Assembly (NCBI GenBank): GCA_020445645.1
Contig: JAGRGG010000004.1
Coordinates: 1 to 33,154, forward strand
Source: Geminicoccaceae bacterium
Lineage (GTDB): Bacteria > Pseudomonadota > Alphaproteobacteria > Geminicoccales > Geminicoccaceae
Direction: 5' to 3'
Length of the DNA stretch: 33,154 nucleotides
Of the stretch, positions 13,239 to 31,829 are shown in pieces (position 1 is the first letter of the stretch; every line of letters begins with the position of its first letter). A model generated the notes under the pieces. The model made no database searches. It had not been told where the DNA came from and saw nothing but the letters and a program-made list of their open reading frames with translations. Made by a program: the position numbers and the translations under genes.

Positions 13239-13253
13239 CGTTACGTTCCTTTC

Positions 13254-15140: not shown

Positions 15141-15161
15141 GCGCCGCCCGTCGGGCGGCGC
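15141..15161 (-). terminator. GC-rich hairpin between sciP and fliF
   Basis: Bases 15141-15149 pair perfectly with 15153-15161 (9 bp, 3-base loop) about 50 bases past the sciP stop. No T-tract follows on either strand. It may end or attenuate sciP transcripts before the fliF promoter, but the structure alone does not prove it. Confidence 0.4.
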
Positions 15162-15209
15162 GGACGGACCCGTCGGGGTGCGCCCGCCGGCGGTGAGCCT
15201 TTGGAATTC

Positions 15210-15482: not shown

Positions 15483-15625
15483 GGGGCATCTCCGCCGATT
15501 TGCCGTTTCGCTTTCCGGCTCTTCTTCAATGTTGCTTGTTCTAACTTATAGGTCTTTAATGACAGCCTAATCATCATGGTAAATGCCACTCAAATTCGAT
15601 CGAGACGTGAAGAACATTTCCAGGC
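15483..15625 (-). promoter_or_regulatory. AT-rich promoter region of sciP with near-CtrA site
   Basis: This 143-base gap is far more AT-rich than its surroundings. Bases 15556-15570 read TTAA-N7-CTAA, one mismatch from the CtrA box. sciP is itself CtrA-activated in Caulobacter, so a feed-forward inhibitory loop is plausible. Exact -35 and -10 elements could not be fixed by eye. The upstream neighbour flgE ends at 15626, and no terminator hairpin is obvious after it. Confidence 0.5.
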
Positions 15626-16921
15626 TCAGCGGGTTATCTGCATGAGCTCGCCGAGCATGTCGTTGGCGGTCGTGATGATCTTTGCGTTGGCCGAGTAGGC
15701 GCGCTGGGTAACGATCATCTTCGTGAACTCCTCGGCGATGTCGACGTTGGCGCCTTCGAGCGAGGAGGGGATGAGCGAGCCCGCACCGCCCGTGCCGGCG
15801 AAGCGCAGGTTCTCCTCGCCGGACGCGGTGGTCTTGGCGAAGACGTTGCCCGAGCGCGAGTCGAGGGCGGAGGGGTTGGCGAAGGTGGCGATCGCGAGTT
15901 TGTAGAGGTTGCGCGTCTCGCCGTTCGTGAAGCTCGCCGAGAAGTAGCCCTCCTCGTCGATGCTGACGCCCGTGAGCGTGCCGGCCTCGACGCCGTTCTG
16001 CTTGACGAAGGCGACGTTGCTGGGGCTCGCGAACTGCGTCACCCCGTCGGTGTCGCCGACCGTGCCGAGCTTGAGGTCGATCGTGCTGGGCGAGGCGCCG
16101 AGCGCGGCGTCCCAGGTCACGGCCATCGGCATGGGGGCCAGGGTGCTGCCGGCGAACGCGCCCGTGCCGTCGAAGGTGAGATCGCCCGACGCGATGAGCC
16201 CGCCCGGGTGCGCGACCGCATCGACGGAAGCCGGATCGGCGTAGGCCTCGGTCGCCCAGGTGTTGGCGCCCGTCTTCAGGAAGCCGACGGTGAGGTCCTG
16301 GGCACGACCGAGGCTGTCGTAGACCTGCATGTTGCGGGTGAAGTGCGGGGGCACGGCCCCGGCCGCCATGTCGCCGGCCGCGTAGGCGCCCGCGTAGGCC
16401 ACGGCGTCGGCGTCCAGGTTGGCGCTGAGCTCGATCTCGGTCGTCGCCCGGGCGACGCCGTTGAGGGGGCCGGTGGCGACCGTCGTGAGCTGGTTGAGGT
16501 CGGCGATCTCGCCGTTCTCGTCGAGCTTCCAGCCGCGGAGGTAGAAGCCGCTGGGCGTGCGGAGGTTGCCGAGCACGTCCGGCTGGAACGCGCCGTCGCG
16601 GGTGTAGACCTGCTCGCCCGAGCCGTCCGCCTTCGCGTTGACGGCGAAGAACCCGTTGCCGGAAATGGCGACGTGGGTCGGCGAGCCGCTGCCCTGGACG
16701 AGGCCCTGCTTTTCGACCGAGCGCGCGGTGATCGCCCGCACCCCGCCCGGCGCGTAGGGGGCCTTGGTCGAGCTTTGCGTCACGAGGTCGGAGAACTGGG
16801 CGGCGGCACCCTTGTAGCCCGTCGTGTTCACGTTGGCGACGTTGTCGGAGATCATGCTCATCGCGCGGCTCTGGGCGCCGAGGCCCGAAACGCCGGAGAA
16901 CATCGAACCAAAAAGGCTCAT
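15626..16921 (-). CDS. flgE: Flagellar hook protein FlgE
   Basis: FlgE polymerises into the flagellar hook after export by the type III apparatus. The 431-residue product starts MSLFGSMFSGVSGLGAQSRA and carries the rod/hook N-terminal motif SDNVANVNTTGYKG. The middle section is less conserved. The C-terminal rod/hook helix includes GANVDIAEEFTKMIVTQRAYSAN, split here as ANVDIAEEF and QRAYSANAK. There is no cleavable signal peptide, as expected for this export route. A GAAGGAG ribosome site lies upstream of the ATG. It is the third gene of fliK-flgD-flgE, following flgD by 41 bases. Confidence 0.95.
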   Translation of the reverse strand: MSLFGSMFSGVSGLGAQSRAMSMISDNVANVNTTGYKGAAAQFSDLVTQSSTKAPYAPGGVRAITARSVEKQGLVQGSGSPTHVAISGNGFFAVNAKADGSGEQVYTRDGAFQPDVLGNLRTPSGFYLRGWKLDENGEIADLNQLTTVATGPLNGVARATTEIELSANLDADAVAYAGAYAAGDMAAGAVPPHFTRNMQVYDSLGRAQDLTVGFLKTGANTWATEAYADPASVDAVAHPGGLIASGDLTFDGTGAFAGSTLAPMPMAVTWDAALGASPSTIDLKLGTVGDTDGVTQFASPSNVAFVKQNGVEAGTLTGVSIDEEGYFSASFTNGETRNLYKLAIATFANPSALDSRSGNVFAKTTASGEENLRFAGTGGAGSLIPSSLEGANVDIAEEFTKMIVTQRAYSANAKIITTANDMLGELMQITR

Positions 16922-16962
16922 CGGCCCTTAACTCCTTCGTTGATCTTGTCGTTGGTTGACGA

Positions 16963-17640
16963 TCAGGCGGCGGACGCCGGCGCCCGCCTGATGCCGTGGA
17001 CGACGTCCATCGGGCGGGGCACGCCGCCGACGACGAGGAAAACAGCCCCGCCTTCCTGCTCGATCGCTTCGACGAGGCCGTTCACCTCGGTCTTGGCGGC
17101 AAGGGGGACGCCCCCGGCGTCGAGGGCGGAGACGCGCAGGCGGTAGGCGCCGGGGGGCAGGCGGTTGCCGGCGGCGTCGCGCCCGTCCCAGGCAAGCGTG
17201 TGCCGCCCGGCGTCGGCGGGGCCTTCGAGGAGGCGCACCGTCCGGCCGGCTTCATCGAGGATCTCGACGCCGAGCGAATTCGCCGCCTCGGGAAGCTCGT
17301 AGCCCAAGGGCACGTCCCCTTCGGCGCCCAGGCTGAAGCCGTCGCCCTCGATGCGGACCTCGGCGCCCAGGTAGCCGAGCGCCGCCGTGGCTTGGCTCGT
17401 CTCGATGACCCCGATCAGCTTGCCGAGTTGGTCGTTGGTGCGGATCGCCTGCTCGACGGTCGAGAATTGCACGAGCTGGGAGGTGAACTTGTCCGAGTCC
17501 ATCGGGCTTAAGGGGTCCTGCTGCTGCAACTGCGTCGTCAGGAGCTTCAGGAAGCCCTCGAAGTCGCCGGCCAAGCCCTTCGCCGCCGCCGAAGTCTTGT
17601 CCGGCGCGGTCGTGGCGGCGTTCGTCACGGTGAGCGGCAT
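16963..17640 (-). CDS. flgD: Hook capping protein FlgD
   Basis: FlgD is the temporary scaffold cap on which FlgE subunits assemble; it leaves when the hook is complete. The 225-residue product has the conserved N-terminal motif FLKLLTTQLQQQDPLSPMDS, with QLVQFSTVEQ after it. An Ig/tudor-like C-terminal half contains WDGRDAAGNRLPPGAYRL, typical of FlgD. The ATG at 17640 is preceded by an AGGAA ribosome site. It lies 14 bases after fliK. Operon order fliK-flgD-flgE pairs the length-control protein, the cap and the hook subunit. Confidence 0.95.
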   Translation of the reverse strand: MPLTVTNAATTAPDKTSAAAKGLAGDFEGFLKLLTTQLQQQDPLSPMDSDKFTSQLVQFSTVEQAIRTNDQLGKLIGVIETSQATAALGYLGAEVRIEGDGFSLGAEGDVPLGYELPEAANSLGVEILDEAGRTVRLLEGPADAGRHTLAWDGRDAAGNRLPPGAYRLRVSALDAGGVPLAAKTEVNGLVEAIEQEGGAVFLVVGGVPRPMDVVHGIRRAPASAA

Positions 17641-17654
17641 GAGGGTCGTTCCTA

Positions 17655-18941
17655 TCAGGCTTGGATGTCGTAGAGGCGGTCGAGCAGGACGCGGCGGGCA
17701 GCGCCCGGTAGGGCGGCGGGCTCGTCCGCGACGCCGTTCACGGGACGCCGTCCGCCCCGGAAGCGCCCCTCGCCGCCCGCGTGGCGGTCGCCCTGCTGGC
17801 GCAGGTTCATCTCGATCCCGCCGCCGAGCTGGAGGCCCTGCGCCGCGAGAACGCGCTCGATCTGGCGGGTATCGCGCTGGAGGAGCTCCAGGGTCTCCGG
17901 CCGCTCGGCGGCGATGACGACGTGGGCGCGCTGGTCGCGGCCCACCTCGACGGTGACGTCGACCCCGCCGAGTTCCTCGGGGTGCAGGCGGACCTCAAGG
18001 CGATCGATCCCCTCGCGGACGGCGTGGACGATCTCGACCGGCAGGTCGACGAGCGGTATCGGGTGCGCCGGGCGGGCGACGGATGCCATCGCCTCGGCCC
18101 TGTGCGCGTGGTCGGCGGCGACGGTGGTGCCGAGGGTCGTGGCGAAGAGGGGGCGAAGCGCCTCGGCGCCGGCGCGGTCCGGCGCCGGCAAGCCCTCGCC
18201 GGCGTCGCCCCGGTCCTTGCCGGGTGCCTGTTCGGCGATGGTGGTCGAGGGCGTGGCGGTCGTCCCGGCGGCAAGGGGCGCTGGGGCGGCATCGGCTTCG
18301 GCACCCGCCGGAGCGGATGGCGGAGGCTGGACGAGGCCCTCTATCCCCTGTCCGGCACCGGCGTCTCCGGCCGGCAGGGCCAAGGGCGACGCGGCGCCAT
18401 CGACGGGGCGGGAGGGAGCGGCGGGACCGGCCGTTGCCTGCGCTTGGCCCACGGCCCCTCCGGTCGCCGGGAGCGGGGCCGCCTGGAAGACCAGCCAGAA
18501 CGCCATGAGTTGCTGATCGGCGGTGGGCTCGGACACGGCGTCCCCGGCGGGCGGGTCGAGATCCTCCAGCACCACGGGCGGGGCCGCGTCGGCGGGCTGT
18601 TCCGGTTGCGCCGGCCGCATCGGTCGGACTTGGAGGAACTCGGTGAGGAAGGCCGCGAGGCGAGACTGATTCGGGGTCCCTGGCGGATTCGCCGCCGTGG
18701 GCAGGTCGAGGGCGGGCGTCGCGTCTGGCGCTTCGGGCGGCACGACCCCGTCGCCCGTCGCCTTCGACAGGGCGTCACCAGCGGGCGTGGCGAGGACGCC
18801 CGTTGCGGCTGGCGCCGGCGGCAAAAGCGAGGCCAGCAGGGCAGCGAACAGGTCCGGGAACGCGGCCTCGCCCGTCGCAGCGTTCGGGAACGCGGCGGCG
18901 AGGGGACCGGGACGAGGGGGGGCGGAGGTTTGGTCGATCAT
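17655..18941 (-). CDS. fliK: Flagellar hook-length control protein FliK
   Basis: FliK measures hook length and switches export specificity from hook to filament proteins. The 428-residue product has a long low-complexity Pro/Ala-rich N-terminal part (about 1-290) and a C-terminal Flg_hook domain with RLEVRLHPEELGGVDVTVEV and a following AAERPETLELLQ segment. This layout is typical. The ATG at 18941 is chosen; a TTG at 18983 would make the coding sequence run through the sigma-54 promoter and is rejected. No ribosome site is visible, and the predicted transcript starts only about 4-5 bases before the ATG, so translation may be nearly leaderless or begin further in. Confidence 0.85.
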   Translation of the reverse strand: MIDQTSAPPRPGPLAAAFPNAATGEAAFPDLFAALLASLLPPAPAATGVLATPAGDALSKATGDGVVPPEAPDATPALDLPTAANPPGTPNQSRLAAFLTEFLQVRPMRPAQPEQPADAAPPVVLEDLDPPAGDAVSEPTADQQLMAFWLVFQAAPLPATGGAVGQAQATAGPAAPSRPVDGAASPLALPAGDAGAGQGIEGLVQPPPSAPAGAEADAAPAPLAAGTTATPSTTIAEQAPGKDRGDAGEGLPAPDRAGAEALRPLFATTLGTTVAADHAHRAEAMASVARPAHPIPLVDLPVEIVHAVREGIDRLEVRLHPEELGGVDVTVEVGRDQRAHVVIAAERPETLELLQRDTRQIERVLAAQGLQLGGGIEMNLRQQGDRHAGGEGRFRGGRRPVNGVADEPAALPGAARRVLLDRLYDIQA

Positions 18942-18955
18942 GGCAAGGACCGAGG

Positions 18956-18971
18956 AGCAAGGCCCGTGCCA
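18956..18971 (-). promoter_or_regulatory. Sigma-54 (-24/-12) promoter of fliK-flgD-flgE
   Basis: The minus strand reads TGGCACG-N4-TTGCT, a full match to the RpoN consensus TGGCACG-N4-TTGCW. Counting from the GC of the -12 element, transcription should start near 18945. The operon downstream encodes hook proteins, the class driven by sigma-54 and FlbD in Caulobacter, and flbD is in this window. Confidence 0.88.
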
Positions 18972-19003
18972 GATAGGAAACAAGCGGCTTTCGGTGCGTC
19001 GCG

Positions 19004-19636: not shown

Positions 19637-20407
19637 TCAACGCATCCGGGTGCAGGCGGCGGCGCACTCTACCCTTCGGCGTAGGCGGATGGGGGTCGTC
19701 TCCGCCGCGAGCGCGTCGTAGAGGAGCATCCGGCCCGACAGCCCCTCGCCCAGGCCGAGCAGTTCCTTGACGACCTCGACCGCCTGGAGCGAGCCGACGA
19801 CGCCGGCGGCGGCGCCGAGCACGCCGCCCCGGGCGCAGGACGGGAGTACCCCGCCGTCCAGGGTCTCGTCGAGGAGGCAGCGCAGGCACGGGTGGGGGGG
19901 GCCTTCGTGAGCCTTCCAGGTGGTGAGCTGGCCGTCCATGCCCTGAACGGCGGCGGCGACGAGCGGCACGCCTTGGCGGCGGCAGGCGTCGTGGACGAGG
20001 AGACGGGTCTCCAGGTTGTCGCTGCCGTCGGCGACCGCGTCCATGCCATCGACGAGCGCGTCGACGTTGGCCGCGTCGAGGTGGGAAGGATGACGCTCGA
20101 TCGTGACGAGGGGGTTCAGGGCGCGAAGTCGGGCGGCGGCGGCCTCGACCTTCGAGGTTCCCTCGTCGCCGGTGGCAAACAGGATCTGGCGTTGCAGGTT
20201 GGAAGGGTCGACCGCGTCGTCGTCGACGATCCGCAGCGTGCCGACCCCGGCGGCGGCGAGGTAGAGGAGGAGGGGCGAACCCAGGCCGCCGGCGCCGACG
20301 ACGAGGACTTTGGCCCGCTTCAGCCGCATCTGCCCTAGCCCGCCCACCTCCGGCAGAACGATCTGCCGGGCGTAGCGGACGATCTCCCCCTCGCTCAACG
20401 CGGTCAT
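19637..20407 (-). CDS. moeB: MoeB/ThiF-family sulfur-carrier adenylyltransferase
   Basis: Proteins of this E1-like family adenylate the C-terminus of a small sulfur carrier (MoaD or ThiS) for molybdopterin or thiamine synthesis. The 256-residue product has the nucleotide motif GAGGLGSP at 38-45, Asp pair near 62-64, SNLQRQ near 69-74, and the conserved SDNLETR stretch near 132. The C-terminal part has GGVLGAAAGVVGSLQAVEVVK. A CLRC pair is present, but the usual second CxxC is replaced by CAAAC close to the C-terminus. Which carrier it serves cannot be told, as no moaD or thiS is present. It starts at 20407 with an AAGGGAA ribosome site; a CtrA box lies 21-35 bases upstream. Confidence 0.85.
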   Translation of the reverse strand: MTALSEGEIVRYARQIVLPEVGGLGQMRLKRAKVLVVGAGGLGSPLLLYLAAAGVGTLRIVDDDAVDPSNLQRQILFATGDEGTSKVEAAAARLRALNPLVTIERHPSHLDAANVDALVDGMDAVADGSDNLETRLLVHDACRRQGVPLVAAAVQGMDGQLTTWKAHEGPPHPCLRCLLDETLDGGVLPSCARGGVLGAAAGVVGSLQAVEVVKELLGLGEGLSGRMLLYDALAAETTPIRLRRRVECAAACTRMR

Positions 20408-20427
20408 GCTCGGTTCCCTTCGCGCCG

Positions 20428-20442
20428 TTAACACCCCCTTAA
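20428..20442 (+). promoter_or_regulatory. CtrA box between the moeB-like gene and the FlhB-like/fliO/fliP operon
   Basis: TTAA at 20428-20431 and 20439-20442 are separated by exactly seven bases, a full CtrA consensus, continuing into CC on the plus strand. The site lies 67 bases before the FlhB-like ATG and 21 bases before the divergent moeB-like ATG. CtrA control of the export-gate operon fits the known class II role; an effect on the moeB-like gene is inferred from position only. Confidence 0.75.
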
Positions 20443-20508
20443 CCATAGGCCGCTAGCGTCTCCCCATCGACGCCCGATCCAGGGCGTTCCGGCCACGAAG
20501 GAGCGCGG

Positions 20509-20793
20509 ATGGCCCACCGCATCGCCGACACCGCCTTTCGGAGCAAGCCCTCGGGGAACCGCTACCCCCGTCGGGTCGGATCGGAGCACGTCAGGATCGC
20601 AGCCCGCGTCCGCGCCTTGGCCGAGGAGCGCAACGTGCCGCTCCACGAGGATCCGAACCTCGCCCGGGTCCTGACCCTGATGGAGGGCGGCGCGCCGGTC
20701 CCCTCGGCGGCGCTCGCCGCCGTGGCGGAGGCGCTGGCCCTTCTCTACCGCCACGACCCGGCGCGGTCGACCTGTGGGAGCAACCTCGCATGA
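20509..20793 (+). CDS. Short FlhB-C-terminal-like flagellar protein
   Basis: The 94-residue product resembles only the cytoplasmic C-terminal domain of FlhB/YscU export-switch proteins. RIAARVRALAEERNVPLHED, NLARVL and PSAALAAVAEALALLYRH correspond to the segment after the autocleavage loop. There is no membrane domain, and the NPTH cleavage motif is absent. Stand-alone FlhB-like proteins of this kind (sometimes called FlhX or FhlB-domain proteins) occur in other bacteria and may replace or modulate the FlhB C-domain. The start at 20509 has a GAAGGAG ribosome site. It heads an operon with fliO and fliP and overlaps the next gene by ATGA. Confidence 0.8.
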   Translation: MAHRIADTAFRSKPSGNRYPRRVGSEHVRIAARVRALAEERNVPLHEDPNLARVLTLMEGGAPVPSAALAAVAEALALLYRHDPARSTCGSNLA

Positions 20794-21104
20794 GTGCCCG
20801 GAACGACGACGCGGCGGCGCGGCTGCGAGCGGCCTCGGCGGCGCTCGACGAGGCCCGGCGCCGGGCGGAACGGGGGGAGGCTCCGGATCTGGCGCCGCTC
20901 GCGGCGACGATCGGAGACTGCCTCGCCCACCTGTCCCGATCGGACGATCCGGCACAAGCCGCCCTGCGGCTCGCGCTCCGCGACGACGCGGAGCGGCTCG
21001 TCCGGACCCTCGACACCAAGAGCGACGAGCTTCGCCGCCGGCTCCGGGAGGGCGGCGCCACGCGCCGCGCGGCCGGGGCCTACGCCAACGGACAGAAGCT
21101 GTGA
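20790..21104 (+). CDS. Unrecognised small helical protein in flagellar export operon
   Basis: I do not recognise this 104-residue product. It is almost entirely predicted helix, rich in Ala, Arg, Asp and Glu, with no membrane segment, signal peptide or cysteine-based motif. A segment at about 65-90 (DDAERLVRTLDTKSDELRRR) looks like a coiled coil. It overlaps the FlhB-like gene before it (ATGA) and fliO after it (GTGA). It is therefore probably translated with them and probably linked to flagellar export. Size and composition would allow a FlgN/FliT-like chaperone or a FliO/FliP assembly factor, but no sequence signature supports either. Confidence 0.7.
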   Translation: MSARNDDAAARLRAASAALDEARRRAERGEAPDLAPLAATIGDCLAHLSRSDDPAQAALRLALRDDAERLVRTLDTKSDELRRRLREGGATRRAAGAYANGQKL

Positions 21105-21373
21105 TCGAGCTTTGGGAAATCGGCCGCTCGGCGGCGATGCTCCTCGTCGTCCTCGGCCTCGTCCTAGCGCTCGGCTGGGGGGCGAAGCGGCTCAAGCTGG
21201 GGCCGGCGGCGGCGAAGGGGGGGCCGGGGCGCAGGCTCCAGGTCGTCGAGAGCCTGTTCCTCGACCCGCGCACCCGCCTCGTCCTGGTCCGGCACGATGG
21301 GGCGGAGCACCTGCTCCTCGTCGGCGCGAACGGCGGGCAGGCGCTCCGTTCCACGGGGGAGGAGCGTCCATGA
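21101..21373 (+). CDS. fliO: Flagellar biosynthesis protein FliO
   Basis: FliO is a small membrane protein that helps the FliP ring assemble in the export gate. The 90-residue product has one N-terminal membrane segment (about 9-27), a basic Arg/Lys patch, then the typical FliO tail RRLQVVESLFLDPRTRLVLVRHDGAEHLLLV. The GTG start at 21101 overlaps the stop of the preceding gene (GTGA), which leaves little other choice. Its own stop overlaps the fliP ATG (ATGA), behind a GAGGAG ribosome site. Confidence 0.92.
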   Translation: MIELWEIGRSAAMLLVVLGLVLALGWGAKRLKLGPAAAKGGPGRRLQVVESLFLDPRTRLVLVRHDGAEHLLLVGANGGQALRSTGEERP

Positions 21374-22113
21374 AGCGCCTTTTGCGGACGGCCCTTCCCC
21401 TCATCGCCCTGGCGGCGGCGTTCCTGCCGGGCGCCGCGGCGGCGCAGGCGCTCACCCTCGACCTCGGCGAGGGCGGCAGCGTCACGGGGCAGATCGTCCG
21501 CCTCGTCCTCCTCGTCACGGTCCTGAGCCTCGCCCCCTCGATCCTCGTCATGGCGACCTCGTTCACCCGGATCGTGATCGTGCTCTCGTTCCTGCGGACG
21601 GCGATCGGCCTCCAGCAGAGCCCGCCCAACGCCGTGATCATCGGCCTGTCGCTGTTTCTCACCCTGTTCATCATGCAGCCGACCTTCGAGGCCGCGTGGG
21701 AGGCGGGGGTCGCTCCCCTCATCGCCGAGGAGATCGACGAGGCGACCGCCTTCGAGCGGGCGTCCGCCCCCTTTCGCACCTTCATGCTGGCGCAGGTGCG
21801 GGAAAAGGACCTCGCCCTCTTCTACGACATCGCCGACCTGCCGCCCGCCGACGGCCCCGACGCCGTGCAGCTGCGCGTCCTCGTCCCGGCCTTCATGATC
21901 AGCGAACTGCGCCGGGCGTTCGAGATCGGCTTTCTCGTCTTCATTCCCTTTCTCGTCGTCGACATGGTCATCGCCTCGGTGCTCATGTCGATGGGCATGA
22001 TGATGCTGCCCCCGGTCATGATCTCCCTGCCCTTCAAGCTGATCTTCTTCGTCCTCGTCGACGGCTGGTACCTCGTCGTGGGCTCGCTCGTGCAGAGCTT
22101 TCATACGTTGTAG
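21370..22113 (+). CDS. fliP: Flagellar export gate protein FliP
   Basis: FliP forms, with FliQ and FliR, the core channel of the flagellar type III secretion gate. The 247-residue product has a cleavable signal peptide (about 1-25, ending AAAQA), then the family stretch LVLLVTVLSLAPSILVMATS and FTRIVIVLSFLRTAIGLQQ. A periplasmic loop and two further membrane segments follow, with VPAFMISELRRAFEIGF and MGMMMLPPVMISLPFK. All are hallmarks of FliP/SctR. It is the last gene of the operon. fliQ and fliR are not in the window and must lie elsewhere. The HDAC-family gene converges on it 24 bases downstream. Confidence 0.97.
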   Translation: MKRLLRTALPLIALAAAFLPGAAAAQALTLDLGEGGSVTGQIVRLVLLVTVLSLAPSILVMATSFTRIVIVLSFLRTAIGLQQSPPNAVIIGLSLFLTLFIMQPTFEAAWEAGVAPLIAEEIDEATAFERASAPFRTFMLAQVREKDLALFYDIADLPPADGPDAVQLRVLVPAFMISELRRAFEIGFLVFIPFLVVDMVIASVLMSMGMMMLPPVMISLPFKLIFFVLVDGWYLVVGSLVQSFHTL

Positions 22114-23043: not shown

Positions 23044-23198
23044 CGGGGCTCCTTGCGTGACGCGCGGCGGCGTGCCCGCCATATGGCGTCGTCCCCGGCC
23101 GCCGGCCATCGGCGCCAGTTCCGTCGATCGTGCTTGCCACGGCAGTTTTTAAACTTTAAGTTGATTTAAAGACACATCTTCCCCTGACAGGGTTGAAA
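23044..23198 (+). promoter_or_regulatory. Divergent promoter region before the glycan cluster
   Basis: The gap between the HDAC-family gene and the CDP-glucose dehydratase contains a sharp AT-rich block at 23146-23175. Inside it, CTTTAA (23154-23159) and TTAAAG (23166-23171) form an inverted repeat. This is the likely promoter/operator of the cluster. The TTAA spacings do not fit the CtrA consensus. AGGG about seven bases before the ATG at 23199 serves as ribosome site. Confidence 0.45.
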
Positions 23199-24326
23199 AT
23201 GCACATCGATCCTTCGTTCTGGCTCAACCGCCGCGTGCTGGTGACGGGGCATACCGGCTTCAAGGGCATCTGGCTGTCGGCGTGGCTGAGCGAGCTTGGG
23301 GCGGATGTGGTCGGCTTCGCCCTGCCGCCCGGCCACGCGGCGTCGCTCTACTACCTCGCCGACATCGACAAGCGGGTCGCCAACGTCACAGGGGACATCC
23401 GCGACCGCGACCTTCTCGTCCGCACCGTGCGTCAGCACCAGCCGGAGGTGGTCTTCCACCTCGCGGCCCAGTCCCTGGTCCTGCCGGGAATCAAGGACCC
23501 CGTGCTCACCTTCGAGAGCAACGTGATGGGCACGCTCAACCTCCTGGAGGCGGCGCGCCACGACCGCGACCTCGCGGCCCTTCTCGTCGTGACGAGCGAC
23601 AAGGTCTACGCGCCCTCGGAGCAGCCCCGCCGCGAGGGCGACCCGCTCGGCGGGCACGACCCCTACGCGGCCAGCAAGGCGGCGGCCGAACTCGTCGCCG
23701 CCACCTACGCCCGGCTCTACCTCACGCCGGGGGACGGGATCGGGGTGGCGACGGCGCGGGCCGGCAACGTCGTCGGCGGCGGCGACTTCAGCCCGCACCG
23801 GCTTTTCCCGGACCTCGTCCGGGCCGCCTACGACGACCGCGTCGCCCGCATTCGCAACCCCGAAGCGACCCGGCCCTGGCAGCACGTCCTCGACGCCCTG
23901 CACGGCTACCTCGTCCTCGCCCAGGAGCTGGCGCGGCAGCCGGAAGCGTTCAAAGGCGCCTGGAACTTCGGCCCGCTCGACGAGCGCGAATGGACCGTGG
24001 GGCAGGTCGCGGACGAGGCGATGCCGATCCTCGGCGGGAGCTGGGCGCCCGACCCCTCCGCCGGATCGGGGGCCAAAGCCGGCGCCGAAGCGCCCGTCCT
24101 GCGCCTCGCCTCGGACCGGGCCGTGCGCCAGCTCGCGTGGCGCCCCGTCCTCGACACCCACCGGGCGATCGCGTGGACGGCGGCCGACTACCGCGAGTTC
24201 GTCGAGGAGCAGCGGGCCGACTGGCTGTTCCGGCGCATCGACGCGTTCGCCGGCCGGGGCGGCGACCACGCTGCGACCAAGCGCCGTCGCCTCAGCATCA
24301 AGGGGGACAGACATGCCGTTGGTTGA
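23199..24326 (+). CDS. rfbG: CDP-glucose 4,6-dehydratase
   Basis: This SDR enzyme converts CDP-glucose to CDP-4-keto-6-deoxyglucose, the branch point to CDP-linked deoxysugars. The 375-residue product has the NAD-binding motif TGHTGFKG near residues 17-24, typical of RfbG. It also has the catalytic YAASK (Tyr-x3-Lys) near residue 157, preceded by TSDKVYAPSEQPRREGDPLGG-type sequence, and NVVGGGDFSPHRLFPD. The substrate is further supported by the adjacent cytidylyltransferase. An in-frame TTG at 23193 would add two residues; the ATG at 23199 is preferred. The last 14 bases overlap rfbF. Confidence 0.93.
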   Translation: MHIDPSFWLNRRVLVTGHTGFKGIWLSAWLSELGADVVGFALPPGHAASLYYLADIDKRVANVTGDIRDRDLLVRTVRQHQPEVVFHLAAQSLVLPGIKDPVLTFESNVMGTLNLLEAARHDRDLAALLVVTSDKVYAPSEQPRREGDPLGGHDPYAASKAAAELVAATYARLYLTPGDGIGVATARAGNVVGGGDFSPHRLFPDLVRAAYDDRVARIRNPEATRPWQHVLDALHGYLVLAQELARQPEAFKGAWNFGPLDEREWTVGQVADEAMPILGGSWAPDPSAGSGAKAGAEAPVLRLASDRAVRQLAWRPVLDTHRAIAWTAADYREFVEEQRADWLFRRIDAFAGRGGDHAATKRRRLSIKGDRHAVG

Positions 24327-25140
24327 ACCCGAGGACGTTCCCGTCTTCATCCTCTGCGGCGGGCTCGGCACGCGCCTGGGCGAGGCGGCCGAGGGGATGC
24401 CGAAGCCGATGGTGACGATCGGCGACCGGCCGATCGTCGCCCACATCATGCAGACCTACCGCCGCCACGGCTACCGCCGCTTCGTGCTCTGCGCCGGCTA
24501 CAGGGCCGAGGTGCTCAGCACCTATTTCCTGAGCTACGCCGGGATCGCCAACGACTTCACGATCGACATGGGCACCCGCGAGGTCGCCTACCACCAGTCG
24601 AAGGCGGCGCCCGACTGGGAGGTGACGATCGCGCACACGGGGCTCGGCACCCAGACGGGCGCCCGGATCGCCCAGGCCGCCGCCCGGCATCTCGGCGACG
24701 TCGAGCACTTCGCCGTCACCTACGGCGACGGCCTCACCGACGCCGACCTCGGCGCCGAACTCGACTTCCACCTCGGGCACGGCCGGATCGGCACCTCGCT
24801 CGCCATCAACCCCGTCTCGCGCTTCGGGATGCTCGGCCTGGACGGCGGGCGGGTGCACAGCTTCAGCGAGAAGCCGACCGAGGAGGCGACCTGGATCAAC
24901 GGGGGGTTCTTCCTCTTCCGCCGCCGCTTCATGGACTACCTCGACGCCGCGCCGGACTGCGTCCTGGAGCAGGCGCCGCTCCGCCGGCTCACCGAGGACG
25001 GCGAATTGATGGCCTTCCAGCACCAGGGCTTCTGGTCGTGCATGGACACGCCCCGCGACCGCGACGGGATGCGCTCGCTTTGGGAGAGCGGCGCCGCCCC
25101 CTGGCAGGGGATGCCCGGGCGCGCGGACGGGACGGGCTGA
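24313..25140 (+). CDS. rfbF: Glucose-1-phosphate cytidylyltransferase
   Basis: RfbF activates glucose-1-phosphate with CTP to give CDP-glucose, the substrate of the dehydratase encoded just before. The 275-residue product has the nucleotidyltransferase signature LCGGLGTRLGE and the sugar-binding segment MPKPMVTIGDRPI. It also has TYGDGLTDADL (metal-binding Asp) and FSEKPTEEATWINGGFF, close to known RfbF proteins. The start has an AGGGGG ribosome site inside the preceding gene. Its stop overlaps the next ATG (TGATG). Confidence 0.94.
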   Translation: MPLVEPEDVPVFILCGGLGTRLGEAAEGMPKPMVTIGDRPIVAHIMQTYRRHGYRRFVLCAGYRAEVLSTYFLSYAGIANDFTIDMGTREVAYHQSKAAPDWEVTIAHTGLGTQTGARIAQAAARHLGDVEHFAVTYGDGLTDADLGAELDFHLGHGRIGTSLAINPVSRFGMLGLDGGRVHSFSEKPTEEATWINGGFFLFRRRFMDYLDAAPDCVLEQAPLRRLTEDGELMAFQHQGFWSCMDTPRDRDGMRSLWESGAAPWQGMPGRADGTG

Positions 25141-25739
25141 TGCGCCGGCTGGCCAACCCCATGCCGGGCGTCCACCTGCTCGAGGCCGAGCCGAGGCGGG
25201 ACGAGCGCGGCGCCTTCGCCCGAACCTTCTGCGTCGACGAGATGGCGGGGTTCGGCATCGTGGCCAGGGTCCGCCAGGGCAACCTGTCGCGCACGAGCCG
25301 CCCCGGCACGGTCCGGGGGCTCCACTTCCAGCGCCCGCCCTTCGCCGAGACGAAGATCGTGCAATGCCTCGCCGGCAGCGTCCACGACGCGGTCGTCGAC
25401 CTAAGGATGGGCTCGCCCACCTTCGGCAGCAGCTTCACCGCCACACTCTCGCCGGGGAACGGCCGGATCATGGTGGTGCCGGAGGGCTGCGCGCACGGCT
25501 TTCAGGCGCTCGCCCAGGACAGCCTCGTCCACTACCTCGTGACGGCGCCCTACGCCCCGGAAGCCGAGGGGGGGCTGCGTTACGACGACCCCTTCGCCGC
25601 CGTCGTCTGGCCGCTCCCGCCGCGCCACGTCTCGGCGCGCGACCTCGCCCACGCTCCCTTCGACCCGGCGCTGGACGCCCTCCCGGGATTTTCCGCATTC
25701 CCCATCGCCGACAGGATCCCCGAATGCGCGTTCTCCTGA
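25140..25739 (+). CDS. RmlC-type sugar-nucleotide 3,5-epimerase
   Basis: The 199-residue cupin is of the dTDP-4-dehydrorhamnose 3,5-epimerase family. It shows RTFCVDEMAGFG, QGNLSRTSRPGTVRGLHFQ with the catalytic His, VPEGCAHGFQAL, and the YAPEAEGGLRYDDP stretch holding the Tyr and Asp region. Named members act on dTDP-sugars, but no RmlA, RmlB or RmlD is encoded nearby. The likely substrate is therefore the CDP-4-keto-6-deoxyglucose made by its two operon neighbours; this is inference. It overlaps both neighbours (TGATG before, 16 bases after). Confidence 0.85.
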   Translation: MRRLANPMPGVHLLEAEPRRDERGAFARTFCVDEMAGFGIVARVRQGNLSRTSRPGTVRGLHFQRPPFAETKIVQCLAGSVHDAVVDLRMGSPTFGSSFTATLSPGNGRIMVVPEGCAHGFQALAQDSLVHYLVTAPYAPEAEGGLRYDDPFAAVVWPLPPRHVSARDLAHAPFDPALDALPGFSAFPIADRIPECAFS

Positions 25740-26686
25740 CCGGCGCCAGCTCGTTCACCGGCATGTGGCTCGTCCTGGCGCTGGCCAAGCGCGGCGTCGA
25801 GGTGGTGGCGGCGCTGCGCGGCGATCCCCGTCGCTACGACGCGGTCCGGCAGGCGCGCATGACCCAGGTGGCGGCGCACGCGGCCGTCCTCCCCGAGGCG
25901 CCGATGGGAAGCCAAGCGCTGTACGACGCCGCCGACCGGCTCGGCCCCTTCGAGGGCCTGGTCCTGCACGGCGCGCACGTCGGCGACTTCAAGGATCCCG
26001 CCTACGATGCCGGGCGCGCCGTCGTCGCCAACACAGCGGGGCTGGAGCGGCTCGTGGTCCGCCTGAAGGCGAACGGGCTGAAGCGCATCGTCGCCACGGG
26101 CAGCGTCTTCGAGGCGGGCGAGGGCCGGGGCGACGGGCCGCTCCACCACGTCGGCGCCTACGGCTTCGCCAAGTCGATGACCTGGGAGATCCTGAAGGAG
26201 ACGGCCGACCGCGAGGCCGTGGATCTGGCAAAGTTCGTCATTGCCAGTCCCTTTGGGGCCTACGAGAAGCCGGGCTTCGTCCAGGAATTGATGCGGCGCT
26301 GGCTCGCCGGCGAGACGGCCTACGTCCGCACCCCCCAGGTCGGGCGCGACTGGGTCCCGGCCCCGGCCTTGGCCGAAGCGCACGCCGACATGGTCGCCGC
26401 CGCCCCGCCTTATCCCCCCCTCGCCCGGCTGACGCCGAGCTTCCTGCCGCTCACGAACGGCGCGTTCGCGGCCTTCCTCGCCCGCGAGGCGCGTTCCCGG
26501 CTGGGGCGCCCCTGCGCCCTTCGCCTCGCCGACCCGCCCGAACCCCCGGACGGCCCGCTGGAGCGCTACGGCGTCGACCGCCTCCCCGACGGCGACGGTC
26601 AAGTCCTGCGGGACGTTCTCGACGGCCTCGTCGGATGGCATCAGCGATTGGCTGAAAGGAAGCAGGGTTATTCGCTTATAAGTTGA
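25724..26686 (+). CDS. NAD(P)-dependent SDR epimerase/reductase
   Basis: The 320-residue extended SDR begins with the nucleotide motif TGASSFTG. It has the catalytic Ser region ATGSVFEAGEG and YGFAK (Tyr-x3-Lys). Family members reduce or epimerise nucleotide sugars. Following the 3,5-epimerase, it most likely reduces the 4-keto group to finish a CDP-6-deoxy-L-hexose, the role RmlD has in the dTDP pathway; the exact sugar cannot be told. The ATG at 25724 lies in the previous gene, with an AGGA ribosome site. A 98-base gap follows, with a GC hairpin at 26712-26727 and no T-tract. Confidence 0.82.
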   Translation: MRVLLTGASSFTGMWLVLALAKRGVEVVAALRGDPRRYDAVRQARMTQVAAHAAVLPEAPMGSQALYDAADRLGPFEGLVLHGAHVGDFKDPAYDAGRAVVANTAGLERLVVRLKANGLKRIVATGSVFEAGEGRGDGPLHHVGAYGFAKSMTWEILKETADREAVDLAKFVIASPFGAYEKPGFVQELMRRWLAGETAYVRTPQVGRDWVPAPALAEAHADMVAAAPPYPPLARLTPSFLPLTNGAFAAFLAREARSRLGRPCALRLADPPEPPDGPLERYGVDRLPDGDGQVLRDVLDGLVGWHQRLAERKQGYSLIS

Positions 26687-26784: not shown

Positions 26785-27771
26785 ATGGCGCAGCGCAGCA
26801 TCGGGGTCATCGTCGTCACGTGGCGCGCGGCCGGGCTGATCGAGGCGTGCCTGAAGCCGATCCTGGCCTCGCCGCTGCGCCCGAGGGTGCTCGTCGTCAA
26901 CTCCTCCTCGAACGACGGCACGGTCGAGAAGGCGAAGGGCCTCGGCGCCGAAACGTGGGTCGTGCCGCGCGCCGACTTCAACCACGGCGCCACCCGCGAG
27001 GCCGCGCGCCGGCGGCTTGGCACCGACATCGTCGTCATGCTCACCCCCGACGCCCACGCGACCGACACCGGGTTTCTCGGCCGGCTCGTCCGCCCGATCC
27101 TGGAGGAGGGCGCCGCCGTCGCCTACGGCCGGCAGTCGCCAAGGACGGACGCCGACCCGATCGAATCCCTCAACCGCGCCTTCAACTACCCGAACGAACC
27201 CGAGACGCGCAGCGCCGCGACCTGCGAGGCGCAGGGCGCCTCCAACCACTTCTGCTCGAACGCCTGCGCCGCGTGGTCGCAAGAAGCGCTGGACGCGGTC
27301 GGCGGATTCCCGACGACGCTGGTGAGCGAGGAGACGATCGCCGCCGCCCTCCTTTTGGAGCAGGGGCGCACCATCGCGTATGCCGCCGACGCCGAGGTGG
27401 TCCACTCGCACCCGACGGGCCTCGTCGGCGACTTCAGGCGCCAGTTCGACGTCGGCCTCACCCGCGCCGTGTTCCGGGACGTCCTCCTCGCCCGCGAGGC
27501 GGACGAGGTCCGGGGCCGCGCCTACGCGAAGGCGCTCCTCGGCGGCGTGCTGCGGGAGCGCCCGGCGCTCCTCCCCTACGCCTTCCTGGACACCGCCGTG
27601 CGCTACCTGGGCTACCGGCTCGGCCGGATCGGCGAGCGCCTGCCGCGCCGGCTTGCCGCGTCGTTCAGCGGGCAGGACTTCTTCTGGGGCTCGTCGCACG
27701 AGGACGCCTTCTTCGGGGGCGGGGGCGGGACGGTCGAGGCGGGCGGGGAGCGGTTCCGTGATGCGGCTTGA
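26785..27771 (+). CDS. GT2-family glycosyltransferase, rhamnosyltransferase-like
   Basis: The 328-residue protein is a GT-A fold glycosyltransferase. It begins SIGVIVVTWRAAG, and VVNSSSNDGTVE marks the nucleotide-binding strand. FNHGATREAA is typical of rhamnosyl- and deoxysugar-transferring GT2 enzymes. MLTPDAHATD takes the place of the metal-binding DxD. That motif fits a transferase using the 6-deoxysugar made by the preceding four genes; donor and acceptor are inferred. A GGAGA ribosome site precedes the ATG. The C-terminal tail is Gly-rich. The stop lies 11 bases inside the next gene. Confidence 0.88.
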   Translation: MAQRSIGVIVVTWRAAGLIEACLKPILASPLRPRVLVVNSSSNDGTVEKAKGLGAETWVVPRADFNHGATREAARRRLGTDIVVMLTPDAHATDTGFLGRLVRPILEEGAAVAYGRQSPRTDADPIESLNRAFNYPNEPETRSAATCEAQGASNHFCSNACAAWSQEALDAVGGFPTTLVSEETIAAALLLEQGRTIAYAADAEVVHSHPTGLVGDFRRQFDVGLTRAVFRDVLLAREADEVRGRAYAKALLGGVLRERPALLPYAFLDTAVRYLGYRLGRIGERLPRRLAASFSGQDFFWGSSHEDAFFGGGGGTVEAGGERFRDAA

Positions 27772-28915
27772 GCCGGTGCGCGTCGCCCTCTTGACCAACA
27801 ACCTCCTCCCGCCGGGGGAAGGCGTGGCGCGGCACGTCGTCGAGGTGGCGAAGCGCCTCCAGGCGCGGGGCTTCGAACCCCTGATCGTCGCGCGCGGCGA
27901 GGGCTCGTTCGGCTGGCGGCGCGAAGGCTGCGAGGGGGTACCGGTCCTGCGCTACCCCCATCTTCCCGTGAAGCCCTTCCACCACGCCCTGAGCCGCCTG
28001 CCCCTGCAACGCTGGCTCGACGACGGCGCCGAGGGGGCCGACCTCGTCCACGTCCATCTGCCGCTGCTGCCGCCGCTCCGCACCCGGCTGCGCCGCGTCG
28101 TCACCGTCCACAGCCCGATGCTGACCGACGCCGCCGCGATCGGCGAGGGGGGGGTGCAGCCGGCGCTCCTGAAGCTCAACGCCAGGATCTTCAGCCGCCG
28201 CCTGGAGCAGCACCATCTGAACGGGGCCGAGACGGTCGTCGCGGTGTCGGAAGGGGTCGCGGACGAGCTTGCCGCGAACTACGCCCTGAAGGCGCCGCCG
28301 CGGGTGATCCCGAACGGGGTCGACACGCACTCCCTGCGCCCCGGTCCCAGGGCCAAGCGGGCGAATGGCCCCCTCCTCTACGTCGGCCGGCTCGGCTACC
28401 GCAAGGGGCTGTTCCGGCTCCTGGAGGCCGTTGCCCTGCTCGGGCCGGGGGCGCCGGTCCTGGAGCTGGCCGGGGCGGGGCCACTCGGCGAGGCGCTGCG
28501 CGCGCGGGCGCGGCTGCTCGGCATCCGGGACCGGGTGCGCTTCCTGGGCTTTCTCGACCGGGGCGCGCTCCTGGACCGGCTCCACGCCGCCGCCTGCCTC
28601 GTCAACCCGGCCGACTACGAGAGCGGGCCGCTCACCCTCCTGGAGGGCATGGCGACGGCGACGCCGATCGTCACGACGCGCACGGGGCTCGTCCGTGAGA
28701 TCGAGGGGCTGAGCGGCGGCAGGCCCCCTTTCGTCGCCGCGTCGAGCCAGCCGGCAAGCCTCGCCGACGCGATCGAGGGGGTGCTCGCCGACCCTCACGC
28801 GGCGGACGAGCGGGCCATCCTGGGGCGGCGGCTCGTCGAGCGCCACTTCGATTGGGAGAGCGTCGCCGACCGGCTCGTCGAGTCCTACGGCTGGGCGCAA
28901 AGGAAGGCGGCATGA
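27761..28915 (+). CDS. GT4-family glycosyltransferase
   Basis: The 384-residue GT-B enzyme has an N-terminal acceptor domain starting VRVALLTNNLLPPGEGVARHV (residues 6 onward) with HVHLPLLPP near 95. The C-terminal donor domain has LYVGRLGYRKGL, ELAGAGPLGEALR and an E-x7-E signature in ESGPLTLLE. The donor and acceptor sugars cannot be told. It overlaps the preceding GT2 gene by 11 bases and the next gene by ATGA, so it is part of one coupled transcript. Confidence 0.9.
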   Translation: MRLEPVRVALLTNNLLPPGEGVARHVVEVAKRLQARGFEPLIVARGEGSFGWRREGCEGVPVLRYPHLPVKPFHHALSRLPLQRWLDDGAEGADLVHVHLPLLPPLRTRLRRVVTVHSPMLTDAAAIGEGGVQPALLKLNARIFSRRLEQHHLNGAETVVAVSEGVADELAANYALKAPPRVIPNGVDTHSLRPGPRAKRANGPLLYVGRLGYRKGLFRLLEAVALLGPGAPVLELAGAGPLGEALRARARLLGIRDRVRFLGFLDRGALLDRLHAAACLVNPADYESGPLTLLEGMATATPIVTTRTGLVREIEGLSGGRPPFVAASSQPASLADAIEGVLADPHAADERAILGRRLVERHFDWESVADRLVESYGWAQRKAA

Positions 28916-30720
28916 AGCCCCGGCTCAAGGCGGCCCCGATCGCCGAGCGCCGGCGCTTCGCCGTCGTCTGCTTCGGCTTCGAAGCGGACCGCGTCCGCCG
29001 CCAGCCCTGGCACATGGCGCACGGCCTCGCGCTCGGCCTCGTCGCCGAGGGTCACGCCGTCACCCTCGTCACCGATGCCGTAGCGCCGCCCGCCGCCGTT
29101 CCCTACAGGATCGAGCGTCTGCCGGGCCTGATGGCCAGGGGCCGGGTCACGGAGGAACTTGCCGACCTCGTCGGCGACCTCGCGCCCGAGCGGGCCTTCC
29201 TCGTCACCGGCCTGCGCGAGATCGCGGCGATGCATCCCCTCCCCTGGGCGGCATCCACCTCGCTGGTCCTCGCCAGCCCCCGGCTGCGGCTGCGGGAGAT
29301 CCTCTCGCTCGGCCCCCGCGACCTGTGGGGGGAGCGCCACGTCCTCCTCCTGCCCTTCCTGAACGCCCTTCTCCCCGCAAGCCGTCTGCGGCGCGGCTTC
29401 GAGCGCAGCGGCGCCGAGGGCGTCGTCTACGTCAGCCGGGCGACCCGACGGCGGCTCACGGCGGAGGGCCTGCCGCCGGGGCAGGTGCTCACACCGCAGG
29501 TCGAGCCCTTCGACCCGCCCGCCGCCGAGACCCCGCCGGGCGAGCCCGTCGTCGCCTATCTCGGTCCTCCGCTCGCCACCAGGGGCGCCTGCCTCGCCGT
29601 CGAGGCGTTCGAGCGGGCGGCGGCGCACGGGCTCAGGGCCCGGCTCCTCATGCTGCTGCGCCCGGACGTGCCGGAAGGGCTCATGGACCGTCTCCTCCGG
29701 CGCGTCGAGGCGAGCCCGGCCAAGGGCAGGATCGAGGTCGAGACGGCGATGCTCGACGCCGCGGCGCTCCGCGCCCGCCTCGCCGGCGTCCGGGTCTTCC
29801 TCTTCCCGTTCAGGGCACCGGTCTCGGAGGCGCCGCTCGTCGTCCTGGAGGCCGGGCTCTCCGGCCGCCCCGTCGTCGTCCTGGACGCCCCCGGCGTCGG
29901 CGAGTACGCGCGGGCGTTGGGCGGGATCGTCGCCAGGGACGCGGGGGAGCTGCCGGCGGCCCTCCTCTGCGCCTGTCACCGCCCGCGGCCGCCCCTGGAA
30001 GACCCTGGGCGCTGGACCTCGTGGCCGAACGCCGCGGCGGGTCTCCTGCACGACGCCGAGCGCCCCTTGCGCCCCTGGCGGTTCATCGGCCTCTGCGGGG
30101 TCGACGGCAGCGGCAAGACCACGCTCTTGCGCGCGATCGAGCGGCGCCTCGCGGCGGAGGGCGTCGCCAGCCGCCACGTCTGGAGCCGCTTTCGCAACTA
30201 CTTGTCCAAGCCGCTGTTGGCGCTCACCCGCCTCACCGGGCACAACCGGAAGGAGGTCGCGGGTGGCGCCCGCGTCGGCTACCACGACTTCGAGGGCCGC
30301 CCCTTCATCGCCTGGCCCTTCCTCGCGCTCCAGGTCGTCGACAACCTGATCGACCTCGCGCTTCGCTACCGGGGGCGGCGGCCGATCCTCGGCGACCGCT
30401 GCGTCCTCGACACCGTCGTCGACCTCGCGGTCGACACAGGACTCGACGACCTCCTCATCGACCGGCTGGCACCCCGGCTCGTGCGCCTCCTGCCGGAACC
30501 CCGCCTGATCTGCCTCGTCGAGCGCCACCCGGCCCGGATCGGCGAGGCCCGCCCCGACGCCGTCGCCGACCGCGGCTTCGCCCGGCGGCAGGCGCTGTTC
30601 CGGCGCCTTGCCGACCGGCTGGACTTGCCGGTGATCGACAACAACGGCCTGCTCGAGGAGAGCGTCGAGCAGGTCTGGCGGCTGGCCACACCGGCCGTGA
30701 ACAGGGGTGAGGCTGAATGA
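28912..30720 (+). CDS. Glycosyltransferase fused to thymidylate-kinase-like P-loop domain
   Basis: The 602-residue protein has two parts. Residues about 13-375 look like a GT-B glycosyltransferase: an N-terminal Rossmann half with HMAHGLALGLVAEGH, then a C-terminal half with VVAYLGPPLATRG and SEAPLVVLEAG, an altered GT4 Glu motif with six rather than seven residues between the Glu pair. Residues about 389-595 form a P-loop kinase with Walker A GVDGSGKTT (Lys402), a GDRCVLDT segment like the DR(Y/H) motif of dTMP kinases, and a C-terminal helix region. There is no stop or frameshift between the parts. Function is unknown; the kinase domain might phosphorylate a sugar, lipid or nucleotide linked to glycan synthesis. 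ATGA overlaps exist on both sides. Confidence 0.82.
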   Translation: MKPRLKAAPIAERRRFAVVCFGFEADRVRRQPWHMAHGLALGLVAEGHAVTLVTDAVAPPAAVPYRIERLPGLMARGRVTEELADLVGDLAPERAFLVTGLREIAAMHPLPWAASTSLVLASPRLRLREILSLGPRDLWGERHVLLLPFLNALLPASRLRRGFERSGAEGVVYVSRATRRRLTAEGLPPGQVLTPQVEPFDPPAAETPPGEPVVAYLGPPLATRGACLAVEAFERAAAHGLRARLLMLLRPDVPEGLMDRLLRRVEASPAKGRIEVETAMLDAAALRARLAGVRVFLFPFRAPVSEAPLVVLEAGLSGRPVVVLDAPGVGEYARALGGIVARDAGELPAALLCACHRPRPPLEDPGRWTSWPNAAAGLLHDAERPLRPWRFIGLCGVDGSGKTTLLRAIERRLAAEGVASRHVWSRFRNYLSKPLLALTRLTGHNRKEVAGGARVGYHDFEGRPFIAWPFLALQVVDNLIDLALRYRGRRPILGDRCVLDTVVDLAVDTGLDDLLIDRLAPRLVRLLPEPRLICLVERHPARIGEARPDAVADRGFARRQALFRRLADRLDLPVIDNNGLLEESVEQVWRLATPAVNRGEAE

Positions 30721-31829
30721 TCTACATCTTCTACAACAACGACCCCCTCGCCCAGGACCAGGGTGGCGGCGCCGAGCACTTCCGAGGGCTCTACCGGGCG
30801 ATGCTGAAGTCGAGCCTCGACTTCCGCCTCGTCGGCGCCCGCCTCCAGCACGAGCGCGTCGCCCCGAACGTCGCCTACATCAGCGAAAGCTCGAACTTCC
30901 TGCGCTTCTACATGGCACTCTGGGGCTGGTTCTGGCGCAACCGCAAGCGGTTCAAGGACACCGACGTCTTCCACTTCCACCGCAATTACGCCGCTTGGCC
31001 GAAGCTGGTCCTGGCCCCCGGCCGGGGCCGGGTGCTCATCAGCTACCACAACGTCACCGGCCGCGTGCTCGACGGCTGGCTCGGCCGCCTCGCCCGGCCC
31101 TTGCGCGCCCTCATGCTCATGGGCGAGCGCCGGGTGGCCAAGCTCGCCGACGCCATCGTCTGCGTCAGCGGCCGCGACCGGAAGGAACTCCGCCGGATCG
31201 TCGTCCACGAGCCGTTCGAGCGCGCCCTCGTCATCCCGGCCGCGTTCGATGGCGCGCTCTTCAACAAGGAGGCGGCGCGGCCGCCCGGCGCCGCGCTCGC
31301 CCGCAGGATCCTGGCGGTCGGCCGGATCAGCCATCAGAAGAACATGCCGCTCGCCATCGCCGTGCTCGAGGTGCTGACGGCGCTCGGCCACGACTTCGAG
31401 CTGACGATCGCCGGCGACGGCGAGGACAGCCGGACGCTGGTGCGCCGCATCGCCGAGAGCCCCGCCCGCGAGCGGGTCAAGTGGGTCGGCCGGGTACCGC
31501 ACGACCGGATGCCGGGGACCCTGGCCGAGCACGGCATCCTCCTCCTCACCTCGCGCTACGAGGCGTCGCCCACCGTCGTCAAGGAGGCCCTGAAGGCGAT
31601 GCGGCCCGTCGTCAGCACCGACGTCGGCGACGTGCCGGACTGGCTCGACGAGGGGGTCAACGGCTTCGTGCGCGGCCAGGACGCGGCCAGCCTCGCCGAG
31701 GGGATCATCGAGGCGCGCCGCCTCGTCGAGGCGGGCGCCTACCGCCCCGCGTCCCGCATGGACCTCCTCAACGAGGACGCCATCATGAACCGGGTCGTCG
31801 GCCTCTATAGGAGGTTGCAGGCCGGGTGA
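30717..31829 (+). CDS. GT4-family glycosyltransferase
   Basis: The 370-residue GT-B enzyme begins MIYIFYNNDPLAQDQGGGAE and shows FHFHRNYA and SYHNVTGR in the acceptor half. The donor half has AVGRISHQKNMPLAI, LTIAGDGEDSRTL and an E-x7-E signature in EASPTVVKE, followed by STDVGDVPDWL, all typical of GT4. Donor and acceptor are unknown. It overlaps the fusion gene before it (ATGA) and the flippase after it (GTGA). An AGGAGG ribosome site for the flippase lies in its last codons (31809-31814). Confidence 0.92.
   Translation: MIYIFYNNDPLAQDQGGGAEHFRGLYRAMLKSSLDFRLVGARLQHERVAPNVAYISESSNFLRFYMALWGWFWRNRKRFKDTDVFHFHRNYAAWPKLVLAPGRGRVLISYHNVTGRVLDGWLGRLARPLRALMLMGERRVAKLADAIVCVSGRDRKELRRIVVHEPFERALVIPAAFDGALFNKEAARPPGAALARRILAVGRISHQKNMPLAIAVLEVLTALGHDFELTIAGDGEDSRTLVRRIAESPARERVKWVGRVPHDRMPGTLAEHGILLLTSRYEASPTVVKEALKAMRPVVSTDVGDVPDWLDEGVNGFVRGQDAASLAEGIIEARRLVEAGAYRPASRMDLLNEDAIMNRVVGLYRRLQAG

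Follow-up and report, generated by a model that had tools for sequence, protein, structure and literature searches.

A thymidylate-kinase-like domain fused to an atypical GT4 glycosyltransferase in a conserved Geminicoccaceae glycan operon: a candidate glycan-phosphorylating system

What does a P-loop domain with the fold of thymidylate kinase do when it is fused to a glycosyltransferase inside a glycan operon? The question is raised by a 602-residue open reading frame on the forward strand (28912..30720) of the 33,154-nucleotide stretch of Geminicoccaceae DNA analysed here, referred to below as the window. A preliminary description had read this gene as one uninterrupted frame joining a glycosyltransferase (GT) to a kinase-like domain, and the frame is open as described. 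It begins at an ATG at 28912 that shares 4 bp with the stop of the upstream GT4 gene (28915), its stop shares 4 bp with the start ATG of the downstream GT4 gene (30717), and its product consists of an atypical GT4 domain (residues 1-381) followed by a thymidylate-kinase (TMPK)-fold P-loop domain (residues 388-602). The search for the same fusion in other genomes that the description had proposed returned 17 further fused Geminicoccaceae loci, from independent assemblies and at 42-56% identity, as well as four distant loci in which the two domains are split. With that of the window, 18 copies were aligned over their full length and every one is an unbroken fusion; their occurrence across independent assemblies rules out a frameshift or an assembly artefact. 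The predicted full-length model (pTM 0.65) leaves uncertain how the two domains are placed against each other; it contains no long helix between them. The fusion, the pairing of GT and kinase and their co-occurrence with the nucleotidyltransferase-like gene discussed below leave us in almost no doubt that they are real.

The preliminary description also placed the fusion in a glycan cluster, and its surroundings are indeed a glycan operon that is conserved across Geminicoccaceae. In the conserved order, and on the forward strand of the window, this operon comprises a glucose-1-phosphate cytidylyltransferase-like (NTP-transferase) gene (24313..25140; PF00483; TIGR02623 at 261 bits, under the cut-off of 300), an RmlC-like 3,5-epimerase gene (25038..25739; PF00908, E 4e-50; TIGR01221 below cut-off), an NAD-dependent epimerase/dehydratase gene (25364..26686; PF01370, the domain running from about residue 121), GT2 (26785..27771; PF13641, PF00535), GT4a (27380..28915; PF13439, PF00534), the fusion gene, GT4b (30717..31829; PF00534) and a Wzx-like flippase gene truncated by the contig end (31826..33154; PF01943 at 30 bits, cut-off 28.2). 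The first two intervals are open reading frames whose starts may be later, and the true start of GT4a is probably near 27800. The positions of GT2, GT4a and GT4b are conserved, that of GT4b also in a Cycloclasticus metagenome-assembled genome (MAG), and the Wzx-like gene is conserved as well. Neither a methyltransferase nor an ABC polysaccharide exporter was recognised in the operon, which carries the Wzx-like flippase instead.

The kinase domain was found in 23 of 32 Geminicoccaceae genomes, with 36-61% identity in the first set from this family. In the nine genomes where it was not found, some of them fragmentary, the GT domain and GT4b were also unmatched; as all three are missing together, the system appears to be present or absent as a whole. 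Most of the genomes surveyed were MAGs. Within a sample of 385 Alphaproteobacteria the carriers were members of the Geminicoccaceae only, and among 78 genomes of another Pseudomonadota class a single one, G280, carried the kinase. Neither viral-contig scans nor a phage search gave any sign of a phage origin. A plasmid search with the full-length fusion also returned nothing, and the same search with the kinase alone gave a Herpetosiphon plasmid as its sole match.

The GT domain (28912..30054, forward strand) scores 28.5-29.7 bits against PF13692 (cut-off 27) and is predicted to adopt a GT-B fold, its nearest structures in the PDB being BshA, the top match, and other GT4 enzymes; a sequence search of the PDB gave no match at E 0.01. 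It thus has the GT-B fold and PF13692 in common with GT4 glycosyltransferases such as BshA, PimB' and WaaG, but differs from them at the positions that define their donor site. We compared the domain across 22 loci, covering fused and split forms, in which identity to the window copy falls as low as 19%. The segment GPPLATRG (residues 218-225; 29563..29586) takes the place of the canonical GR....KG of GT4, the Arg of GR being lost and KG reading RG in 22 of 22 loci. In the segment PFRAPVSEAPLVVLEA (residues 299-314; 29806..29853) the first Glu of EX7E is replaced by Ser and the second is retained (E313); the first position is Ser throughout the subfamily, with Ala in one member, and the second Glu is kept in all 22 loci, so that the altered Glu motif noted in the preliminary description is a trait of the subfamily. 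A QPW signature (residues 31-33; 29002..29010) is likewise invariant in the 22 loci. Two GT4 matches from Natrinema and Rhizobium, which have no adjoining annotated kinase and served as negative controls, lack QPW and possess the EX7E and GR....K residues that are replaced in the fused and split loci. Judged by sequence, these GT domains are therefore a subfamily marked by an invariant QPW and a changed GR..K and EX7E. The residues altered here contact the donor in GT4 enzymes, and their replacement implies that the donor is probably unusual, unless the GT domain is inactive, as it might be.

The kinase domain (residues 388-602; 30073..30717, forward strand) was modelled with confidence by AlphaFold (mean pLDDT 92), and its best Foldseek matches in the PDB are thymidylate kinases (TM 0.58-0.63, E about 1e-6, mostly 17-20% identity). 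A profile-profile comparison by HHalign with the thymidylate kinases (TMKs) of related genomes gave a probability of 97%. The domain reaches no curated family cut-off, scoring 15.9-18.4 bits against 83.25 for TIGR00041 and 14.5-16.3 bits against 27 for PF02223; its Walker A region matches many P-loop families weakly, and matches from a sequence search of the PDB were restricted to P-loops. The label "thymidylate-kinase-like" thus holds for the fold and the profile-profile match and fails for the curated families. The Walker A motif with Lys402 and the DRC segment reported previously are both intact: GVDGSGKT occupies residues 396-403 (30097..30120), its G, D, G, G and K not varying among homologues, whether fused or split, and DRC (495-497) opens the segment DRCVLDTVVD (residues 495-504; 30394..30423), which combines a DR motif with two invariant Asp residues (R496, D500 and D504 being invariant). 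The catalytic positions are invariant across the homologues from Pseudomonadota and Chloroflexota.

The domain shares with thymidylate kinase the fold, the Walker A GxDGxGK[ST], the DR motif and the LID-region Arg, but departs from it where dTMP would bind. The dTMP-phosphate motif REPGG, present in the genomic TMKs compared with them, is absent from 22 of 22 kinases, and in its place stands an additional family-specific stretch, WSRFRNYLSKP (residues 424-434; 30181..30213), with W424, R426 and S432 invariant. The base-binding Arg of helix 3 is also replaced, an invariant Asp (Asp477; 30340..30342) occupying the same column in a joint MAFFT alignment or lying within a few residues of it by hhalign. 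A separate canonical tmk is found elsewhere in the genome of the window and in 25 of the 26 genomes searched. The unmet cut-offs, the loss of REPGG and of the base-binding Arg and the separate tmk argue against a housekeeping dTMP kinase, and agree with the earlier idea that this is not an ordinary dTMP enzyme; a TMPK-like fold that is unlikely to act as a dTMP kinase is the reading that these sequence features suggest. The loss of the dTMP-site features would suit a non-nucleotide acceptor, and as Arg residues of the NMP-kinase type are retained, an acceptor that bears a phosphate is possible.

Outside the family, four distant loci carry the two domains as adjacent genes that overlap by 8-25 bp. 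These are found in the Cycloclasticus MAG (L043; GT 8854-9990, kinase from 9983), where GT4b and Wzx follow as in the window, in an uncultured proteobacterium (L050; GT 8842-9981, kinase 9971-10642), in G280 (L056; GT 4095-5237, kinase from 5227) and on plasmid pHAU01 of Herpetosiphon aurantiacus (L031). In the last of these, Haur_5093, annotated as "glycosyl transferase group 1", and Haur_5092, annotated as "Thymidylate kinase-like", overlap by 25 bp within a glycosyltransferase cluster; unlike the fusion in the window, this pair is split, is 24-29% identical to it and has other neighbouring sugar genes. As the end of the Cycloclasticus GT coincides with the start of the fused linker, the fusion would have arisen most simply through loss of a short overlap, and we infer a change from split to fused. 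Distances among the GT domains parallel those among the kinases (r = 0.93, against at most 0.60 in 2000 permutations).

A third gene, of about 230 codons and with the signature of a Pol-beta-type nucleotidyltransferase, is common to all four split loci; the Herpetosiphon copy immediately follows the kinase gene, where the plasmid gene table lists no gene. Most copies have a hydrophobic segment and are predicted to be membrane-bound. The motifs hG[GS], [DE]h[DE]h and a third h[DE]h are present, with GS, D-D and P[LM]D invariant in 11 sequences. As the best Pfam score (PF18765, 23 bits) is below the cut-off of 26.9, membership of the Pol-beta nucleotidyltransferases rests on these motifs; a PDB search with the profile gave only weak MNT matches. 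This partner of the GT-kinase pair, newly recognised here, is thus a putative membrane protein with an intact triad.

Searched with a profile built from the four split-locus copies, 23 of the 32 Geminicoccaceae genomes have the partner. There it occupies a second locus, which in the genome of the window lies at G000:C79:14247-14894. Presence of partner and kinase agrees in 28 of the 32 genomes (21 with both, 7 with neither; Fisher p 0.0003, uncorrected for relatedness); three of the four that disagree (G011, G027 and G012) are incomplete genomes (70-89%), and the fourth, G025, is spread over about 1150 contigs. Among 399 Pseudomonadota genomes, in what appear to be the same sample drawn for both searches, the kinase profile and the partner profile each matched only the genome of the window and G280. 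In seven Geminicoccaceae genomes the partner has Wzy-like, Alg14-like and Alg13-like genes as its neighbours, and in the genome of the window a WcaJ-type gene is also nearby (on G000:C79, Wzy_C at 44 bits and Bac_transf at 225 bits). The window's genome therefore holds Wzx, Wzy and an initiating phosphoglycosyltransferase, the Wzx-like gene in the window and the others at the second locus. In the Cycloclasticus MAG, where an initiating phosphoglycosyltransferase was found too, the genes of both loci are united in one Wzc/WcaJ/Wzx/Wzy cluster that includes a GNVR/Wzz protein. By analogy with this single cluster, the two Geminicoccaceae loci would serve one polymer; together they look like one Wzx/Wzy pathway, and the split loci are similar in character.

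Our main reading, to which we assign a probability of roughly 40%, is that both GT and kinase work on lipid-linked repeat units of a Wzx/Wzy pathway, where a sugar is added and phosphorylated and the phosphate is then processed by the nucleotidyltransferase. At the inner membrane face, the GT domain would act on a repeat unit linked to undecaprenyl diphosphate, and the kinase domain would transfer phosphate from ATP to a hydroxyl of a repeat-unit sugar, probably the newly added one. The nucleotidyltransferase-like protein might use or substitute this phosphate to form a phosphodiester or a nucleotidyl decoration, conceivably before flipping and polymerisation. A broader proposal goes further than we would press, and we hold it tentatively, as rather unlikely in full: a previously undescribed glycan-phosphorylation module of three enzymes, in at least two phyla, in which the atypical GT4 adds a sugar, a TMPK-derived glycan kinase phosphorylates it and the membrane Pol-beta-like nucleotidyltransferase caps the phosphate on a lipid-linked unit.

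The same three proteins could instead make and channel a donor. A free sugar or polyol would then be phosphorylated by the kinase and activated with an NTP by the nucleotidyltransferase-like protein, yielding an unusual donor for transfer by the fused GT. Kinase, nucleotidyltransferase and GT in sequence follow the logic of sugar salvage pathways, and both their co-occurrence here and the altered GT donor site in every member are as such a route would have it. We nevertheless consider it unlikely, since the predicted membrane location of most copies of the nucleotidyltransferase-like protein suits a lipid-linked substrate better than a free sugar, known sugar nucleotidylyltransferases differ in fold, and the fused operon already contains a cytidylyltransferase-like gene. 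Recovery by an NMP kinase of UMP, CMP or another nucleotide freed during glycan assembly would account for the NMP-kinase fold and for thymidylate kinases as top matches, and WcaJ-type enzymes do release UMP. Most GTs release NDP rather than NMP, however, and the kinase is tied to one GT subfamily and not to a phosphoglycosyltransferase; with REPGG and the base-binding Arg also lost, such recycling strikes us as improbable.

Slightly harder still to credit is a regulatory or structural ATPase, in which the P-loop domain would be a switch or scaffold for a GT complex in the manner of the pseudokinases of some EPS systems; a precedent exists in EcpK, a catalytically dead P-loop scaffold of Myxococcus EPS synthesis (PMC12004946), but here, unlike in a pseudokinase, no catalytic position varies even between very distant homologues. 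We give least credence, and very little, to the proposal of the preliminary description that phosphorylation terminates the chain or primes the lipid. GT-linked kinases do phosphorylate glycan ends in systems of the Klebsiella O7 and E. coli O9 type (PMC11231755), but no methyltransferase was recognised beside the fusion and no ABC polysaccharide exporter in the operon, which has a Wzx-like flippase, and the second or split loci have a Wzy-like polymerase together with an initiator of the WcaJ type. As a Wzx/Wzy pathway needs no phosphate terminator and is primed by the WcaJ-type enzyme, both versions lose ground in loci that, in the genome of the window and in Cycloclasticus, appear to have their own initiating phosphoglycosyltransferase. 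What survives of the earlier proposal is phosphorylation linked to a glycan, which leads our readings given a kinase of non-dTMP type fused to a GT in a glycan operon. On the main reading, action on the lipid-linked repeat unit, Geminicoccaceae carriers probably phosphorylate a surface sugar chain by means of a type of kinase not known for that role.

If this is correct, the union of a TMPK-fold kinase with a glycosyltransferase, accompanied by a nucleotidyltransferase-like partner, would be a new way of making surface polysaccharides that bear phosphate, and "thymidylate kinase-like" genes inside polysaccharide clusters are probably misnamed. Both forms, split and fused, offer small proteins amenable to testing. 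Our literature searches, whose coverage was incomplete, found no description of a TMPK-like glycan kinase, those candidate mentions of thymidylate kinase that were checked being unrelated. The coupling of phosphorylation to sugar transfer, put forward earlier as new, would be new here as regards the kinase fold only, since ORF6 of Klebsiella pneumoniae O7 already has GT and glycan kinase in a single polypeptide, made up of GT2 modules and a methyltransferase-kinase in which the kinase is AmiN-like in fold (PMC11231755). WbdD of E. coli O9 and K. pneumoniae O3 likewise phosphorylates O-chains (PMC11231755), and the known GT-linked phosphorylation of bacterial glycans is carried out by enzymes of other folds, on chain ends. 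ORF6 and WbdD thus resemble the fusion, in the role proposed for it, as kinases acting on a glycan in O-polysaccharide assembly, with ORF6 also being GT-linked. They differ in the fold of the kinase, in its association with a methyltransferase and coiled coil, and in serving chain termination in an ABC-transporter pathway (PMC11231755), whereas the fusion combines a TMPK fold with a nucleotidyltransferase-like partner in what looks like a Wzx/Wzy pathway.

An unnamed, putatively membrane-anchored Pol-beta-like nucleotidyltransferase, carrying the motifs GS..., [SA]D[IL]D.R and P[LM]D, co-occurs with the TMPK-fold kinase. In the window's own genome it is encoded at G000:C79:14247-14894 (9233-9913 of L113), and it is also present in the four loci where the glycosyltransferase and kinase are overlapping neighbour genes, namely those of a Cycloclasticus MAG (L043, 14270-14962), genome G280 (L056, 6943-7635), an uncultured proteobacterium (L050, 6980-7711) and the Herpetosiphon plasmid (L031, 10629-11222), the last having no gene listed over the stretch that holds it. 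L113 is one instance of a second conserved polysaccharide locus, apart from the window's operon, which is found in seven Geminicoccaceae genomes (L112-L118) and comprises Wzy-like, nucleotidyltransferase-like, Alg14-like and Alg13-like genes.

The glycan operon is preceded in the window by an ordinary mreB-mreC-PBP2-rodA operon (1919-7619, +) and a flagellar gene block (7649-18983, -). A ThiF/E1-like gene (19637-20446, -; PF00899, E 1e-69) sits between the flagellar genes and a histone-deacetylase-like gene, and a 558-aa frame (20428-22104, -) without a Pfam match recurs in two related loci at 52-54%. A 427-aa frame (23166-24449, -) had no Pfam or NCBIfam matches; in almost every Geminicoccaceae locus it is conserved, at 34-42%, and oriented divergently to the operon. 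Its start overlaps that of the cytidylyltransferase-like frame (24313-25140, +), so either one start or the other has probably been misplaced.
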